From: a virus
Virus record (IMG/VR): IMGVR_UViG_3300033141_001582
Span: 1-44,377 of that record
Length of the DNA: 44,377 nucleotides
Direction: 5' to 3' (one strand)
Shown here: piece by piece, positions 4,042 to 43,408 of the stretch
How the letters are laid out: each line of letters starts with the position of its first letter
How positions within the stretch are numbered: position 1 is the first letter of the stretch
Program-made: the position numbers and the translations under genes
Notes under the pieces: model-generated
The model's input: only the letters and a program-made list of their open reading frames with translations
Told to the model about the DNA's origin: nothing
Database searches by the model: none

Positions 4042-4066
4042 AACTTCGTTCATTTTATGAACATAG
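4042..4066. repeat. dispersed palindrome copy 1 (GTTCATTTTATGAAC)
   Basis: A perfect 15-bp inverted repeat at 4048-4062, in the 37-base gap between two virion genes, followed by AGAGGAAATCAA and ATG 4077. The conserved GAAG flank is on the minus strand here. One of nine copies in the window. Confidence 0.85.
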
Positions 4067-11506: not shown

Positions 11507-12767
11507 CGTCTTTCTCCTCCCCAACTATGTTCATTTTTTGAACGAAGTTATCCATTTCGCTCTCTATGTAAAGTGGGTTAGCTTCACCTTCCCTGAATCT
11601 TATAGTCCTCCCACCTGGTGCTACTGGAATGTCATCGATGTAGTTCATGGCACTCATCGTTTCGATGATCTTATCCATTCCCCACTTATCGACGTCATTA
11701 TAAAATCGTGATAACAACTCGTCGTATTTAATTTCCTTCTTGGTCGAGATCTCTGCCATAACTTGCGACAGCGTGTTGGCCAGTGACGATTTGCCGACGC
11801 CACTGAACGTATAGCGCATCTTGACCTCCGTCTGTCTCAGGATTTCTATCGCTCTATCGATATCCTCCTTGTCCAACATCATCGAATCACCACGCGAGGC
11901 ATTCACGATCATTGACAGTTTCATTATATGCGTCGGGCGACGCTCGAAGTATCCAGCGAACCGTGGGTCTTCGAACGGTGGACTCGCGTCTGCTTCTGAG
12001 TACCAGTCAATCCAGGTTTCCAGGAATCGCTGCGTCACCTTGAAGTCCCCTTTGAGCATTCTTATCCGCTCCAAGTCGACCATCAGCAATTCCTGGAGCT
12101 TGAGTTCTTCCGGTGTGTAGAAAGGAGTGTGGACTATTTTGCCTTTCCGTTGCTCGTAGACAAATACCATTCGACTTGTCAGGCCACCGCCTATTGCGTT
12201 CAGTGGCATAGCAGATTGAATAAGATCAGGTGTAGTCGCTCCAATCAGGTTAACCCACACTCCTTTGATGTCGTCGACACCCTCATGTTTAGTTCGATAG
12301 ACCCAATCATCATCGCAGTCATACCAGTCGGTGAGATCAGTCATGAGCTCATTGTTCTGGTAGCCAAGGAAGACCGTTAGCTCCTTGCTAAAGATGGTAA
12401 GCGACGCGTGTATATCCATCGCCCCAGTAGTAGTATCAACCTCCGTTTCGTTCGAGCGCTTCAGGTCACGGATTAGTGCTTGACGCGTCACGGAGTTTGA
12501 TGCCAGTTTCACACCCATCTCACGTAGTAGTTTGAGGCCAGGTATCATGGCAGTTCCCTTACGAGCCTTGCCAGATGGCGCAACAAGTACTACGTACATA
12601 TTAGGATAAAAGTCGAGTGACCCCCAGTGCAGAACACATTTGCGTTGGAGGCACGCGGCAACAACACTTATCGCCGTCCACAAGCGGAACATTCGCGGAG
12701 GTTCAGTGTTGTTCGTAAAGCTTAGGAATCCTTCGATCCAGTCATCGAGGCGTCGTTCGTCGGACAC
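11487..12767 (-). CDS. DUF3987-like phage ATPase / helicase-primase-related protein
   Basis: A 426-residue protein with the usual features of DUF3987-type proteins: an N-terminal LDDWIEGFLSFTNN region, a P-loop-like APSGKARKGTAM at about residues 62-73, a Walker B-like block SLTIFSKEL, and a region VWVNLIGATTPDLIQ typical of this family. The C-terminal third contains a GVGKSSLANTLS segment and an HTH-like tail. The family is associated with phage and plasmid replication. GTG 12767 is chosen because GGAAGGA precedes it by six bases. The start is uncertain because GTG 12782 is also possible. Confidence 0.65.
   Translation of the reverse strand: MSDERRLDDWIEGFLSFTNNTEPPRMFRLWTAISVVAACLQRKCVLHWGSLDFYPNMYVVLVAPSGKARKGTAMIPGLKLLREMGVKLASNSVTRQALIRDLKRSNETEVDTTTGAMDIHASLTIFSKELTVFLGYQNNELMTDLTDWYDCDDDWVYRTKHEGVDDIKGVWVNLIGATTPDLIQSAMPLNAIGGGLTSRMVFVYEQRKGKIVHTPFYTPEELKLQELLMVDLERIRMLKGDFKVTQRFLETWIDWYSEADASPPFEDPRFAGYFERRPTHIMKLSMIVNASRGDSMMLDKEDIDRAIEILRQTEVKMRYTFSGVGKSSLANTLSQVMAEISTKKEIKYDELLSRFYNDVDKWGMDKIIETMSAMNYIDDIPVAPGGRTIRFREGEANPLYIESEMDNFVQKMNIVGEEKDDGQDGE
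11525..11547. repeat. dispersed palindrome copy 2 (GTTCATTTTTTGAAC), inside a coding region
   Basis: The inverted repeat at 11529-11543 differs from the others by one centre base (TTTTTT). It is translated in the DUF3987-like gene as part of FVQKMNIV and at the same time lies immediately before the ribosome site of the next leftward gene. Confidence 0.8.
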
Positions 12768-18640: not shown

Positions 18641-18664
18641 CTTTGTTCATAAAATGAACGAAGA
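18641..18664. repeat. dispersed palindrome copy 3 (GTTCATAAAATGAAC)
   Basis: Perfect core at 18645-18659 with the conserved GAAG on its plus-strand right side. It lies between a long hairpin and the ribosome site of the leftward ribbon-helix-helix-like gene. Confidence 0.85.
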
Positions 18665-23859: not shown

Positions 23860-24240
23860 CTAGCCAGAAGCTTTCTCGGTCCCGGCAGTCTTGATGTCTT
23901 TCTTCAAGTCTGCCAAAGCGGCAATCTGCTCTTCCGGTGACATGCCAGCAAACTTGGCCTTGAAGGCGGCGACTGGATCACTTACACGCTCGATGGCAAC
24001 GCCTGGCTTCCAGGCAGCCATAAGTTTGACGATTTCCTCGGCTGACTTCTTGGCCTCAAGGTAGCGCCGCATAGCAGCCTGAGCAGTGATCTTCGCACTG
24101 GCTTTAAAGTTCGAAAACACCACGGCTTCGCCAAACTTGGTGATGGCATCTTCCAGACCCTCACCGAAGTCTACATAAATCGTAGCTTCTCTGTCTTCGT
24201 CACCGACCTTTTTCTTGGCCTTAATTTCTACGTCCGCCAT
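23860..24240 (-). CDS. predicted highly expressed protein, paralogue of 30826-31167 product
   Basis: A 126-residue charged protein. A beta-like N-terminus (ADVEIKAKKKVGDEDREATIYVDFG) is followed by helices and a C-terminal DPVAAFKAKFAGMSPEEQIAAL. The last block is nearly repeated in the gene at 30826 (DPTKAYAALFAGLSPEQQ). It has its own consensus promoter, a structured leader and an intrinsic terminator, so it is a single-gene unit. AAGGAGAACG precedes the ATG. Function unknown; strong expression among replication genes suggests a stoichiometric nucleoid or replication protein (inference). Confidence 0.7.
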   Translation of the reverse strand: MADVEIKAKKKVGDEDREATIYVDFGEGLEDAITKFGEAVVFSNFKASAKITAQAAMRRYLEAKKSAEEIVKLMAAWKPGVAIERVSDPVAAFKAKFAGMSPEEQIAALADLKKDIKTAGTEKASG

Positions 24241-24430: not shown

Positions 24431-24454
24431 CTCTGTTCATAAAATGAACGAAGT
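24431..24454. repeat. dispersed palindrome copy 4 (GTTCATAAAATGAAC)
   Basis: Core at 24435-24449 with the GAAG flank on the right. It lies immediately after the stop of the leftward gene at 24458 and about 55 bases upstream of the strong promoter. This copy is not next to a ribosome site. Confidence 0.85.
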
Positions 24455-27629: not shown

Positions 27630-27653
27630 CTATGTTCATAAAATGAACGAAGT
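27630..27653. repeat. dispersed palindrome copy 5 (GTTCATAAAATGAAC)
   Basis: Core 27634-27648, GAAG flank on the right. Between the stop of the leftward gene at 27657 and the ribosome site of the gene starting at 27614. Confidence 0.85.
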
Positions 27654-29381: not shown

Positions 29382-29900
29382 TCAGGAAGTTTCAGGCTCT
29401 TCTACGACCGGAACGCCATTGACGTTGCCAAGCTCGTCATGCTCAGACTTGGAGCGTGCGGCTTGCTTAGCAGTGGCTATCCGCTGCGCGTCGGTGATAA
29501 CCTGCCCCATCTGAACAGGGTCGCTCGTTATCTTCTTAAGCTCTCCCTCTACATCTGCCTTGGTCCTTCTCGACTTCAGCTCTTTCACGTCCCATCCCTC
29601 GTAGTCATAAACTTCACGTTGCATCTCCTCCATGTAGTTCCTACCGCCGCGTCCGCTTGGGTTCAGGTCGCCAAGCCCGAGCCTTGTTAGAATCTCCCTT
29701 GCGTCGGTGATGCTCGTCACGCGCTCTGCATGGCCGCCCTTTATCAATATTCCCTCAAACTCCTCAAGCACCAGGCGCATTAGGAAACTCCTGCTCGGAA
29801 GCATTTGGCCCTTTATTGCGAAGAATCGTGCTACGGTAGCCAATGTAGTGCTCTTCACTCTCGCTTGCACGAGTGCGTCGCTCTTCTCTTGTCGATACAT
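29382..29900 (-). CDS. DNA-binding-like protein next to the candidate origin, 172 aa
   Basis: The N-terminal 50 residues (ARVKSTTLATVARFFAIKG followed by SRSFLMRLVLEEF) resemble a ribbon-helix-helix unit. The rest is charged and helical. It has its own consensus promoter and AAAGGAGTAAACG before ATG 29900. It directly borders the iteron-bearing inverted repeat, so an initiator or origin-regulating role is an attractive but unproven idea. Confidence 0.55.
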   Translation of the reverse strand: MYRQEKSDALVQARVKSTTLATVARFFAIKGQMLPSRSFLMRLVLEEFEGILIKGGHAERVTSITDAREILTRLGLGDLNPSGRGGRNYMEEMQREVYDYEGWDVKELKSRRTKADVEGELKKITSDPVQMGQVITDAQRIATAKQAARSKSEHDELGNVNGVPVVEEPETS

Positions 29901-29928
29901 CGTTTACTCCTTTCCCATTGTTCAGACT

Positions 29929-29957
29929 ATCATACCACATTCAAGCGTAGATGTCAA
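29929..29957 (-). promoter_or_regulatory. sigma-70 promoter TTGACA-17-TATGAT
   Basis: Minus-strand -35 at 29952-29957 and -10 at 29929-29934, spacer 17, ending in TGTGG before the -10 like its sister promoters. It drives the 29382-29900 gene and leads straight out of the candidate origin. Confidence 0.8.
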
Positions 29958-29977
29958 TTTAATATTTGGTGGAATTG

Positions 29978-30320
29978 TATGCGGTGACGCGATTGACTTG
30001 CGTGACTCGACTGAGTGTATGTTGTATGCCACCCCCCCATGCCTTCCTGCCAATGGTCGAACGAAGATGACTTGTTGTCCAACTACGTTCATATTATGAA
30101 CGAAGTAGCCGAGAGAGAGAGAGAGAGAGAGAACAATTCTTCTTTCTCTTTCCTTCTTTCTTTCTATATTTTTTTTTAAATGTTGTGGGTTTGAGGCCCT
30201 AAGCCTTAGTTCTGGCGGTAGGTGAAGCCTTCATCTTCGTTCATGGATTTGGCGGAAGGGCCTACCCCCCCGCATACAACATACAGTCACGCAAGTCACG
30301 CGAGTCACGCGAGTCATTGT
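29978..30320. other. candidate replication origin: inverted repeat with 9-bp iterons
   Basis: This is the main part of the gene-free stretch 29901-30376. Long imperfect inverted arms lie at 29995-30070 and 30230-30297. They contain 13-bp perfect blocks (29995-30007 with 30285-30297, and 30017-30029 with 30272-30284) and a 12-bp block (30059-30070 with 30230-30241). The right arm holds three tandem AGTCACGCR units at 30285-30311 plus a partial one; the left arm carries degenerate units on the minus strand. Between the arms are a dispersed palindrome, eleven GA units (30111-30132), a pyrimidine tract and nine T's (30169-30177). Iterons plus an easily melted tract fit an origin. Confidence 0.55.
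30083..30106. repeat. dispersed palindrome copy 6 (GTTCATATTATGAAC)
   Basis: Core 30087-30101; outer bases CTAC/GAAGTAG extend the symmetry. The only copy inside the candidate origin. Confidence 0.85.
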
Positions 30321-30332
30321 ATACATTCAAAC

Positions 30333-30366
30333 GAACGAAAGCCCAGGCAGTTCTCACTACCCAGGC
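30333..30366 (-). terminator. intrinsic terminator with GAGA loop
   Basis: On the minus strand an 11-pair stem (30356-30366 with 30341-30351, three G-U pairs) closes a GAGA tetraloop and is followed by TTTCGTTC. It ends leftward transcription from the gene at 30377 before the candidate origin. Confidence 0.6.
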
Positions 30367-30376
30367 CCTTGTGGCG

Positions 30377-30550
30377 TTAGTTGAGATCAGGTTCGATGAT
30401 GTACCACGCCTCTCGATACCAGTCAGTGTCTTCGTCTTTGCAACGCTTGTCGATGTGATCGACTGCCTTCTGCTTGGAATCGTACGCAGCCACGAAGTGA
30501 CTGCCACAATAAGGGTCATCGTCGTGCTCCATGATGATGTAGATCTTCAC
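30377..30550 (-). CDS. small acidic protein, 57 aa (GTG start)
   Basis: GTG 30550 follows GGGAGGTGAGAAC, a much better start than ATGs upstream. Product: VKIYIIMEHDDDPYCGSHFV, then SKQKAVDHIDKRCKDEDTDW and YIIEPDLN. It resembles small phage proteins that report 'DTDWYxExWxI' near the C-terminus. Function unknown. It shares a 16-bp leader with the next upstream gene. Confidence 0.65.
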   Translation of the reverse strand: MKIYIIMEHDDDPYCGSHFVAAYDSKQKAVDHIDKRCKDEDTDWYREAWYIIEPDLN

Positions 30551-30576
30551 GTTCTCACCTCCCTTCATTGCTTGCC

Positions 30577-30738
30577 TTACTTCATCCAGAAGTATAACAC
30601 TGCCATCGCTTCCTTGTAACTCCAAAACGGTCCTACTGCTGACCTCGGTGGGTCTTGCAAACTTCCACCGAACATTAGAATCGGTCTTGTTGCCACGACT
30701 GGCTCACCATACTCTTTAACTATCCACCATGTTCTCAT
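30577..30738 (-). CDS. small Trp-rich protein, 53 aa
   Basis: Begins MRTWWIVKEYGEPVVATRPI and ends FWSYKEAMAVLYFWMK. GGGAGGTGAAACAGA precedes ATG 30738. It is not recognised, but the ribosome site, tight spacing and a leader identical to that of the next gene (CAATGAAGGGAGGTGA) support it. Confidence 0.6.
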   Translation of the reverse strand: MRTWWIVKEYGEPVVATRPILMFGGSLQDPPRSAVGPFWSYKEAMAVLYFWMK

Positions 30739-30784
30739 TCTGTTTCACCTCCCTTCATTGTGTAGTTGCTTACCATTAGGTGAT

Positions 30785-30808
30785 CTGGTGGTTCTAATGC
30801 GACCTGCT
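30785..30808. repeat. 3' arm of an RNA panhandle around 30826-31167
   Basis: 24 bases downstream of the leftward gene that can pair with 31186-31209 in the minus-strand RNA: 20 Watson-Crick and four G-U pairs, no mismatches. Confidence 0.7.
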
Positions 30809-30825
30809 TGTTTTAGGTTCTGTCC

Positions 30826-31167
30826 TTACTTGGTCTTTCGTAATGCTTCTAACCCTGCGAGGTGCTCTGCTTGCTGCTCAGGACTCAGTCCTGCAAACAA
30901 GGCCGCGTAAGCCTTCGTCGGGTCTGTTGCTTGCTTCCCAGCGTCCAATGCACGTACGGAGTAACCGGTTTTTTCCAACTCATCTAAGTCCTTGGTCTTC
31001 ATCTTTTTTAAAACGCGCTGGATTGAGATGATTAGATGTGATACTGCCCATGACCGTTCAGTCGCTTTATCAACGCCATCAAAGTCGATGGTGACGTCGA
31101 TAACTGCTTTGTAACCTTCAGGCAAGTCACCGCCTGATACTGAACATGCTTTAGTTGTTGTGTCCAT
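30826..31167 (-). CDS. predicted highly expressed protein, paralogue of 23860-24240 product
   Basis: The start at ATG 31167 has AAAGGGG. The 113-residue product begins MDTTTKACSVSGGDLPEGYK, and its C-terminal DPTKAYAALFAGLSPEQQ is very like the end of the 23860 gene product. It is the first gene of the leftward transcript from a promoter at 31267-31295. Both flanks of the gene carry complementary arms. Function unknown. Confidence 0.7.
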   Translation of the reverse strand: MDTTTKACSVSGGDLPEGYKAVIDVTIDFDGVDKATERSWAVSHLIISIQRVLKKMKTKDLDELEKTGYSVRALDAGKQATDPTKAYAALFAGLSPEQQAEHLAGLEALRKTK

Positions 31168-31185
31168 AGTGTTTCCCCTTTCATT

Positions 31186-31209
31186 AGCAGGCCACACCAG
31201 AACCACCAG
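31186..31209. repeat. 5' arm of an RNA panhandle around 30826-31167
   Basis: 24 bases in the 5' leader of the leftward gene, complementary in RNA to 30785-30808. It ends 11 bases before the GGGG ribosome site. Confidence 0.7.
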
Positions 31210-31266
31210 TCATATTCTATTGTCAATGAACGTGTTGTTCCCATGCCCTTTCGCATGGTTGATTCC

Positions 31267-31295
31267 ATTAAAACATAGAACACCATGAATGTCAA
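31267..31295 (-). promoter_or_regulatory. sigma-70 promoter TTGACA-17-TTTAAT
   Basis: Minus-strand -35 31290-31295 and -10 31267-31272. It would start the leftward operon about 93 bases before ATG 31167, with a CCATGC/GCATGG hairpin at the very 5' end. Confidence 0.65.
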
Positions 31296-31424
31296 GGAAA
31301 TAATTCAATCCACGTTTTGCTATCACAAAATTCAAAGGGGGAAAATAGGTTTCAAAACGCGCGGGAAGGCTTCTGCAGAAAATGTATGAGGTATTAAATA
31401 CCCACAAAATTGTGATAAAAGTCA

Positions 31425-31455
31425 ACTACGTTCATAAGCTGGCGAGGCCAGCGAA
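31425..31455. repeat. degenerate palindrome copy interrupted by a hairpin
   Basis: AACTACGTTCAT (31425-31436) and CGAAGTG (31452-31458) match the two flanks of the dispersed element, but the right half of the core is replaced by CTGGC-N3-GCCAG. Confidence 0.5.
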
Positions 31456-31469
31456 GTGACAATGGATTA

Positions 31470-31492
31470 CTTTGTTCATTTTATGAACGAAG
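31470..31492. repeat. dispersed palindrome copy 7 (GTTCATTTTATGAAC)
   Basis: Core 31474-31488, GAAG on the right. It lies about 120 bases upstream of the rightward promoter and beside the disrupted copy. Confidence 0.85.
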
Positions 31493-31605
31493 AAGAGGTT
31501 GACCTTGGGTTAGTTTGCGAGGCGGCGACAGGTTTGCGAGCGTGCAACGCCTCCCCACAAATGGTTGGAAATGAAGAACGAGGCCAGTTTCCACCCAATA
31601 ATAAC

Positions 31606-31635
31606 TTGACATCTGATGTGGAATTGTGGTATAGT
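31606..31635 (+). promoter_or_regulatory. sigma-70 promoter TTGACA-18-TATAGT
   Basis: -35 31606-31611 and -10 31630-31635, followed by a second TATAAT at 31642-31647. TTGACATCT and TGTGGTAT match two leftward promoters. It drives the rightward operon from 31674. Confidence 0.75.
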
Positions 31636-31673
31636 GAATGATATAATGAAAGAGGTTTAAAGGGAGACAGATT

Positions 31674-31946
31674 ATGGCGTGGAAGATGTCAAGGAGAGCG
31701 TTTCTGCTCTTGAATACTGAGGTTGCTTCGTTTACCTTGGATGAAGGAGGGGAGTTTCAGGCAATAAGAACTTGGCCTGGCTATTCAGTAACAGTGAAGG
31801 ACATAGTCTTGTGTGAGAAGACAGTCAACACTTGGAATCGTGAGATCTGGAGAAGGGTTAAAGCGTTAAGGGGCCTCGACTGTCACTCCTTCATGACAGC
31901 AGATGGAAAGCGATATGATGCACGAAATGATTTTAGGATTTATTAA
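31674..31946 (+). CDS. hypothetical protein, 90 aa
   Basis: First gene of the rightward operon, with AAAGGGAGACAG before the ATG. The basic start (MAWKMSRRAFLLLNTEVAS) is followed by mixed structure including RREIW-like NREIWRRVKALRG. Not recognised. Leader-proximal small genes like this often act early. Confidence 0.6.
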   Translation: MAWKMSRRAFLLLNTEVASFTLDEGGEFQAIRTWPGYSVTVKDIVLCEKTVNTWNREIWRRVKALRGLDCHSFMTADGKRYDARNDFRIY

Positions 31947-33997: not shown

Positions 33998-34021
33998 CTA
34001 TGTTCATTTTATGAACGAAGT
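33998..34021. repeat. dispersed palindrome copy 8 (GTTCATTTTATGAAC)
   Basis: Core 34002-34016 with GAAGTGGAGG following; the GAAG flank runs into the ribosome site of the gene at 34033. Confidence 0.85.
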
Positions 34022-43383: not shown

Positions 43384-43408
43384 CTGTGTTCATTTTATGA
43401 ACGAAGTT
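43384..43408. repeat. dispersed palindrome copy 9 (GTTCATTTTATGAAC)
   Basis: Core 43388-43402, GAAG on the right, then AAAGGAGAACTATT before ATG 43427. Confidence 0.85.

Follow-up and report, generated by a model that had tools for sequence, protein, structure and literature searches.

Complementary Arms after boxA Bracket Single Phage Cistrons in a Layout Like That of rRNA Operons

Introduction

In about 29 viral contigs, a boxA element is followed by one arm of a helix, by an open reading frame (ORF) with its own Shine-Dalgarno sequence (SD) and stop codon, and then by the complementary arm, so that a coding cistron, and sometimes a series of them in tandem, lies between strands that can pair in the mRNA; the proteins encoded are mostly unrelated. 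The analyses described below establish this layout, its pairing on the coding strand, its generality and its likeness to the rRNA operon downstream of boxA. What the arrangement does is less certain. The best reading is that it represents an rRNA-type leader-trailer helix placed on a single phage mRNA cistron, probably assisted by boxA and the Nus factors and cut by RNase III, and we give this reading a modest edge over its rivals taken together (a probability of roughly 0.55), with both formation of the helix and its cleavage being inferred.

BoxA and leader-trailer helices are generally regarded as rRNA machinery, the exceptions being the lambdoid nut sites, suhB and a few others (PMC5725501). 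The open-access full-text literature that was searched, which leaves subscription papers and preprints outside, contained no account of phage genes bracketed by stems downstream of boxA; since the parts are known and their combination is undescribed in that literature, the combination on coding cistrons appears to be new. That this machinery recurs on phage coding cistrons in some 29 contigs suggests that viruses use the transcription apparatus of rRNA for their messages, and a system this small makes an old question testable, namely whether the boxA tether brings distant RNA strands together during transcription. A boxA followed by gene-bracketing arms is also a practical sign of transcription units in uncultured phages, where most of the genes enclosed by such arms encode proteins of unknown function.

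The Helix and Its Transcription Unit

The locus lies on the minus strand of a 44,377-nucleotide stretch of viral DNA (IMG/VR record IMGVR_UViG_3300033141_001582, positions 1–44,377), referred to here as the window. In the minus-strand RNA, positions 31209–31186 (CUGGUGGUUCUGGUGUGGCCUGCU) and 30808–30785 (AGCAGGUCGCAUUAGAACCACCAG) pair at 24 of 24 consecutive positions, through 20 Watson-Crick and 4 G-U pairs. When all gapless helices with G-U permitted and a span of up to 3 kb were ranked on both strands, this one was the longest in the window, the runner-up having 18 pairs. The 435-nt stretch containing both arms has a predicted folding energy of −143.1 kcal/mol (z = −4.74), a value reached by none of 100 shuffles, and every one of the 24 arm pairs is present, at a mean pair probability of 0.996, when a predicted transcript of about 940 nt is folded. 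The original prediction, made from the sequence alone, had described 24-bp arms at 30785–30808 and 31186–31209 that flank the whole leftward gene at 30826–31167 and pair throughout with four G-U pairs, and in this it was exactly right. A known Rfam RNA was considered and rejected, as a search of positions 29800–31800 returned no family near its gathering score.

Read 5′ to 3′ on the minus strand, the unit consists of a promoter-like sequence, a hairpin, boxA, arm 1, the SD, the enclosed ORF, arm 2, two further ORFs and a terminator. The promoter-like sequence (31267–31295) is composed of TTGACA (31295–31290), a 17-nt spacer and TTTAAT (31272–31267); it is omitted by a simple promoter scan because its −10 hexamer is weak, and the promoter is therefore inferred. 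Sites aligned with it exist in the related contigs L004 (TTGACA-16-TATGAT, with a better −10) and L014. The small hairpin that follows (31241–31258; CCAUGC-GAAAGG-GCAUGG, six pairs) occupies the boxB position of an rrn leader, any function being inferred, and hairpins occur in the equivalent position in L004 (CAAUGC..GCAUUG) and L014 (AUGCG..CGCAU). BoxA itself (GTTCATTGACAATAGAATA, 31213–31231) is the sole match in the window even when two mismatches are allowed, where shuffled sequence gives an expectation of 0.00. Arm 1, the 5′ leader strand (31186–31209), begins 3 nt past boxA, and 4 nt beyond its end lies the SD (AAAGGGG, 31175–31181), just inside the loop, outside the helix and unpaired by the arms, a spacing rule that recurs in relatives.

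The enclosed cistron (30826–31167) encodes a 113-aa protein of unknown function, termed family A, with both SD and stop inside the loop, and arm 2, the 3′ trailer strand (30785–30808), begins about 18 nt past the stop codon. The second cistron (30577–30738, 53 aa) has no enclosing arms, nor has the third (30377–30550, start at 30550), whose L004 homolog is first in its operon and armed; the intrinsic terminator of the unit spans 30338–30369, all on the minus strand. Given the promoter-like sequence, hairpin and boxA upstream and the two ORFs and terminator downstream, the helix forms a loop around one cistron and does not join the message ends. The proposal that the arms bring together the 5′ and 3′ ends of the message thus failed, since what they surround is the first cistron of a longer transcript; also missed at the time were the boxA starting 22 nt upstream of arm 1 and the recurrence of the arrangement in many phages. 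As a separate observation, a conserved non-coding stretch of unknown function (CACAATTTTGTGGGTATTTAATACC...TTCTGCAGAAGCC, 31359–31414, minus strand) lies upstream of the promoter and recurs beside the boxA unit in L004, L014, L009, L016 and L031.

Pairing Is Conserved in Relatives and Arm Sequence Is Not

A terminase search identified 20 related viral loci. Family A homologs are present in L004, L014, L009 and L031, and more distant ones in L210, L228, L275 and L285. Around the family A gene, L004 carries the arms GGTTAGGGTTGCC/GGCAACCCTAACC, L014 carries TCGTGGTCCGCCC/GGGCGGGCCACGA with an outer extension, and L009 and L031 have TCCTTGCCGTCCGGG/TTCGGACGGCAAGGA in common, all of them unrelated to the window arms; in L009 and L031 the arms are kept, yet the leader fails the boxA pattern. 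Because these four relatives keep the helix in place with unrelated arms, it is the pairing that is conserved and not the sequence. Selection on pairing of the minus-strand RNA had been part of the original prediction, with covariation in homologues named as its check; that check was passed, the arms of relatives having been fully replaced and the pairing retained. Across 12 family A genes, the matched 5′ and 3′ flanks gave a mean of −45.1 kcal/mol as compared with −27.9 kcal/mol for permuted flanks, and none of 20,000 permutations was as low. The mismatches are equally telling: taking the window helix together with the first stem of L004, 10 of 10 are G-U on the coding strand. L004 has an additional 26-pair helix around the gene preceding its family A gene, the homolog of the third cistron of the window operon, and both stems are found in a single fold (z = −10.4), the second stem having no boxA of its own.

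The enclosed protein itself remains obscure. Family A has no informative match in Pfam, PHROG, PDB-fold or BFVD searches. Considered as a possible N-like arginine-rich boxB binder, it has a predicted structure of two strands and four helices, and no fold match. No relative of the window region, of the window protein or of three other enclosed proteins was found among named phages, and a collection with a single genome for each bacterial species gave no family A relative. The minus strand of the window encodes, at 23860–24240, a C-terminal paralog of the enclosed family A protein, with a DP..A.KAxFxGMSPEEQ-like motif in common; it has counterparts in several relatives and its own promoter-like sequence, without bracketing arms.

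BoxA and the Likeness to rRNA Operons

The 19-mer adjoining arm 1 is common to the window, L004 and L014 (GTTCNTTGAYAATNGAATA), and its GACAAT form was used to search a genome collection. The matches include rRNA leaders, where the motif lies 76–323 nt before the 16S start, and 16S–23S spacers, where it lies 467–600 nt past the 16S end; an rRNA landmark was inside the fetched stretch in 12 of 80 loci, and many of the others sit at contig ends. Leaders and spacers with this same boxA pattern belong to Nitrospirae, Alphaproteobacteria, Streptococcus and Deltaproteobacteria. By sequence criterion, the window 19-mer is the boxA of the Nus antitermination system, while binding of NusB/S10 and an effect on termination are inferred. 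The 19-mer was also seen in bacterial contigs without rRNA landmarks nearby (L092, L121, L123, L128–L130 and L134, from Streptococcus, Aminicenantes and others), and these are perhaps other Nus targets such as CRISPR leaders.

In three rRNA spacers, the sequence immediately following boxA is complementary to sequence beyond the 23S gene, namely GAATATTGACGGGTAT/GTACCCGTCAATATTC in L064, GAATAGCTAAACCC/GGGTTTAGCTGTTC in L066 and GAATAGCGC/GCGCTATTC in L073; no such pairing across the 23S was found in the spacer of L122. These comparisons cover the 23S only, since the sequence available for the 16S stopped short of its 3′ end, and they leave out L110, whose sequence does not extend far enough. 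Since post-boxA bases pair across the 23S, the phage units follow the layout of rRNA operons, except that a coding gene stands where the rRNA would be. An rRNA-type helix would be expected to show gene-flanking complementarity that is variable in sequence and conserved in pairing, and to have its 5′ strand directly downstream of boxA, and both expectations are met, the latter at a distance of 3 nt in the window. It would also be expected to enclose a ribosomal RNA, and this is not met; because a 113-aa ORF with an SD is enclosed instead, the unit can be said to work like an rRNA unit and not to be one. Downstream of the gamma-type boxA (GYTCTTTAACAATT), only one usable SD-ORF was available, and this single case was without arms.

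The Same Architecture in Other Viral Contigs

It is important to stress that the query of the wider survey was boxA and not the arms, that bracketing of an SD-ORF was checked afterwards, and that G-U and A-C were scored equally in the arm search, so that neither strand was favoured. Outside a Firmicutes-type class described below, one tightly bracketed ORF was found at 31 of 185 boxA-motif matches, and as most matches in viral contigs have none, the boxA motif alone is insufficient. In 29 of these 31 loci, arm 1 starts between 5 nt before and 7 nt after the motif end; arm 2 usually starts within about 20 nt of the stop, and the enclosed ORFs encode 34–231 aa. Over all loci the enclosed ORFs range from 34 to 295 aa, with a span of about 0.2–1 kb and arms mostly 13–39 long, and intrinsic terminators often come right after arm 2. 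The enclosed proteins mostly lack mutual similarity, a good part of them being diverged family A members with an invariant Gln, and family searches gave at best weak matches to families of unknown function.

The strand on which the arms pair can be read from their mismatches. In the 31 loci, 53 coding-strand mismatches are G-U versus 18 A-C (p = 2e-5), against 27:28 in boxA loci without a bracketed ORF and 145:128 in weak helices. A comparison within contigs, covering 2342 ORFs, found strong arms (score of at least 16) at 39 of 639 ORFs near boxA (within 4 kb downstream) and at 8 of 1703 elsewhere (p = 1.3e-15), with a mispaired-flank control giving 9 of 2089. The 39 ORFs with strong arms near boxA have 81 G-U and 25 A-C mismatches (p = 4.5e-8), and in the weaker bins the ratio is about 1:1. 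That mismatches are so much more often G-U than A-C on the coding strand indicates that selection acts on the mRNA; the lean to G-U over A-C, originally noted for the window alone, extends to relatives and look-alikes (53:18 and 81:25). Some of the surveyed loci are mutually related, so these p-values count partly dependent cases as independent.

Tandem Units

Several contigs repeat the unit. There are four enclosed ORFs in L391 and four or more in L196, and two each in L380, L383, L377, L393, L282, L248 and L004. In predicted folds, all or most pairs are kept in the four stems of L391 and in both stems of L380, L282 and L004. L196 is ambiguous because adjacent arms there could also form local hairpins between cistrons, and its minimum free energy structure lacks two of the four long-range stems. 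As regions to be noted in their own right, L196 4235–8005 and L391 5425–8475 (reverse-complement coordinates) are operons of short genes, each gene between its own complementary arms.

A Firmicutes-Type Class

In sixteen boxA-motif loci, apparently of Firmicutes type, the same conserved arm recurs (GAATATTGATAGTTGG). Its partner, CCAACTATCAATATTC, makes up the 5′ half of an intrinsic terminator that follows the enclosed gene, and between arm 1 and the ORF there is a promoter-like −10 box. This class was excluded from the survey statistics. Were the pairing to form in read-through RNA, it would be expected to open the terminator. Single-gene cassettes that carry boxA and GAATATTGATAGTTGG as a fixed combination were observed in L183, L180, L220, L247, L190, L199 and L226, and further ones in L235, L265, L270, L276, L290 and L357; where the 3′ side was read, the partner is the first half of the cassette terminator, making these cassettes a possible long-range antiterminator in phage accessory genes.

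Comparison with Known Systems

The closest parallel is the rRNA operon leader (boxB-boxA-boxC, with 16S and 23S helices cut by RNase III), which has the same order of promoter (inferred in the phage unit), hairpin, boxA and arm with trailer, places the bases right after boxA in a helix, combines variable arms with kept pairing and occurs as tandem units; the phage units differ in enclosing a translated cistron with its own SD, and their processing is inferred. The lambda pL leader (nutL boxA-boxB, an RNase III site, gene N) likewise has boxA before an early phage gene and a duplex beside the SD, and translation of its first gene responds to the Nus complex (PMC5725501). However, the RNase III stem of lambda is a local one, confined to the interval between nut and the SD, whereas the window stem is long-range and would close only after the gene is transcribed, and no N homolog was recognised.

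Other well-known RNAs share single features. The hok/sok-type mRNAs are short bacterial messages with long-range 5′–3′ pairing, but they have no boxA, encode small toxins and use pairing to occlude the translation start, whereas the phage units keep the SD outside the helix and have ORFs of 34–295 aa with no toxin signature seen; a hok-like type I toxin mRNA was rejected for the window, as the occluded start is not met and arm 1 ends 4 nt before the SD. The T7-type early mRNA is a polycistronic phage message split at duplex RNA by RNase III. Its hairpins are local and intercistronic, in contrast to helix strands that flank a whole cistron, and L196 may combine both. HEARO is a case of an ORF inside a larger structured RNA, with a conserved structured core and an HNH ORF, while in the phage units conservation is limited to the pairing, around ORFs that are mostly unrelated.

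Proposed Mechanism and Competing Explanations

In pre-16S RNA, the helix between leader and trailer is indispensable and has to be longer than 17 bp; boxA makes a 2- to 3-fold contribution (PMC10250234). A boxA near the SD represses translation of suhB, for which a Nus loop hiding the SD has been proposed with lambda N as a parallel (PMC5725501), and in lambda the repression of N is relieved by RNase III cleavage between nut and the SD. By analogy, host NusB/S10 (with NusA, NusG and SuhB) would bind boxA of the phage transcript and tether the leader to RNA polymerase, such that the tethered arm 1 would meet arm 2 once this is transcribed, despite translating ribosomes, and the stem would close only after the cistron has been transcribed in full. 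RNase III could plausibly act on the duplex, which has 24 positions here and reaches 39 elsewhere, and the duplex may either be cut or be kept as a clamp, which in either case would release or insulate one cistron as a stable single-gene message. Cutting would also sever the boxA tether, freeing the ribosome site beside boxA, which is predicted from the examples of suhB and lambda N to respond to the Nus loop, and allowing the terminators right after arm 2 to act. This mechanism rests on sequence, there being no expression, probing or RNase III data for any phage concerned, and the host is unknown. A bolder reading would be that of an undescribed and widespread phage class with early operons built like rRNA operons, in which a boxA/Nus-modified polymerase would give every cistron its own leader-trailer stem, with up to four or more stems in a row, and RNase III would release single-gene messages, with translation starting only after the full cistron has been transcribed; we rate it clearly below even odds.

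Two rivals remain live possibilities. One is a clamp without rRNA-type processing, in which the stem stays uncut and closes the cistron into a loop, shielding it from exonucleases on either side and allowing ribosomes that terminate to load again at the same SD, with boxA serving transcription only, as an anti-polarity element. It can be supported by arms that lie tightly outside the SD and stop with the SD left free, by stems that bracket single cistrons and not operons, and by the terminators that often follow arm 2; yet it gives no reason for the rRNA-like placement of arm 1, which begins only a few nt from boxA, and RNase III should be drawn to many of the helices, which are longer than 22 bp. 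The other rival, a conditional antitermination or timing switch in which arm 1 blocks a terminator at the cistron end, so that upstream read-through would be treated differently from the gene's own transcript, fits the overlap of GAATATTGATAGTTGG/CCAACTATCAATATTC with the terminator and the internal −10 of the Firmicutes-type loci. It is the less probable of the two and seems unlikely as a general account, for arm 2 of the window coincides with no terminator, and L185, L210, L228, L275 and L284 have theirs apart from arm 2, where the helix would leave it intact.

Still less can be said for the arms acting as DNA, whether as inverted repeats at the ends of a mobile cassette, as part of an invertible segment or as operators, with incidental RNA pairing. 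Inverted repeats around single accessory genes do suggest this, and the arms of the Firmicutes-type class are perfectly conserved and resemble shared DNA sites; however, a DNA element predicts equal numbers of G-U and A-C, whereas the lean on the coding strand is to G-U (10 of 10; 81:25), and the arms are nearly fixed in their distance to boxA, SD and stop. Because arms differ between lineages there is no shared recombinase site, and a mobile cassette with terminal inverted repeats is disfavoured, neither strand-symmetric mismatches nor a shared repeat being seen (81:25; unrelated arms). Chance or a low-complexity artefact can be all but dismissed as the source of the arms: helices of 15–18 pairs do arise randomly in long genomes, but here there are 24 pairs exactly at gene borders, a placement repeated in four relatives, and a survey p of about 1e-15. 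The rRNA-type helix thus remains the reading that we prefer.

Other Repeats in the Window

About nine sites in the window (4044–4066, 11530–11547, 18641–18663, 24431–24453, 27630–27652, 30083–30105, 31470–31492, 34003–34020 and 43389–43406) carry a palindromic repeat built around TTCATTTTATGAACGAAG, with 15 matches on both strands where 0.1 are expected, and these sites resemble operators of a phage-wide regulator. There is also a second long pair of inverted repeats at 29976–30029 and 30272–30325 (54 nt, 80%), with a nearly perfect 25-nt counterpart in L031 (1161–1185 and 1527–1551); it surrounds a non-coding stretch that is AT-rich or of low complexity, lies immediately downstream of the operon and may be a replication origin or a structured RNA.
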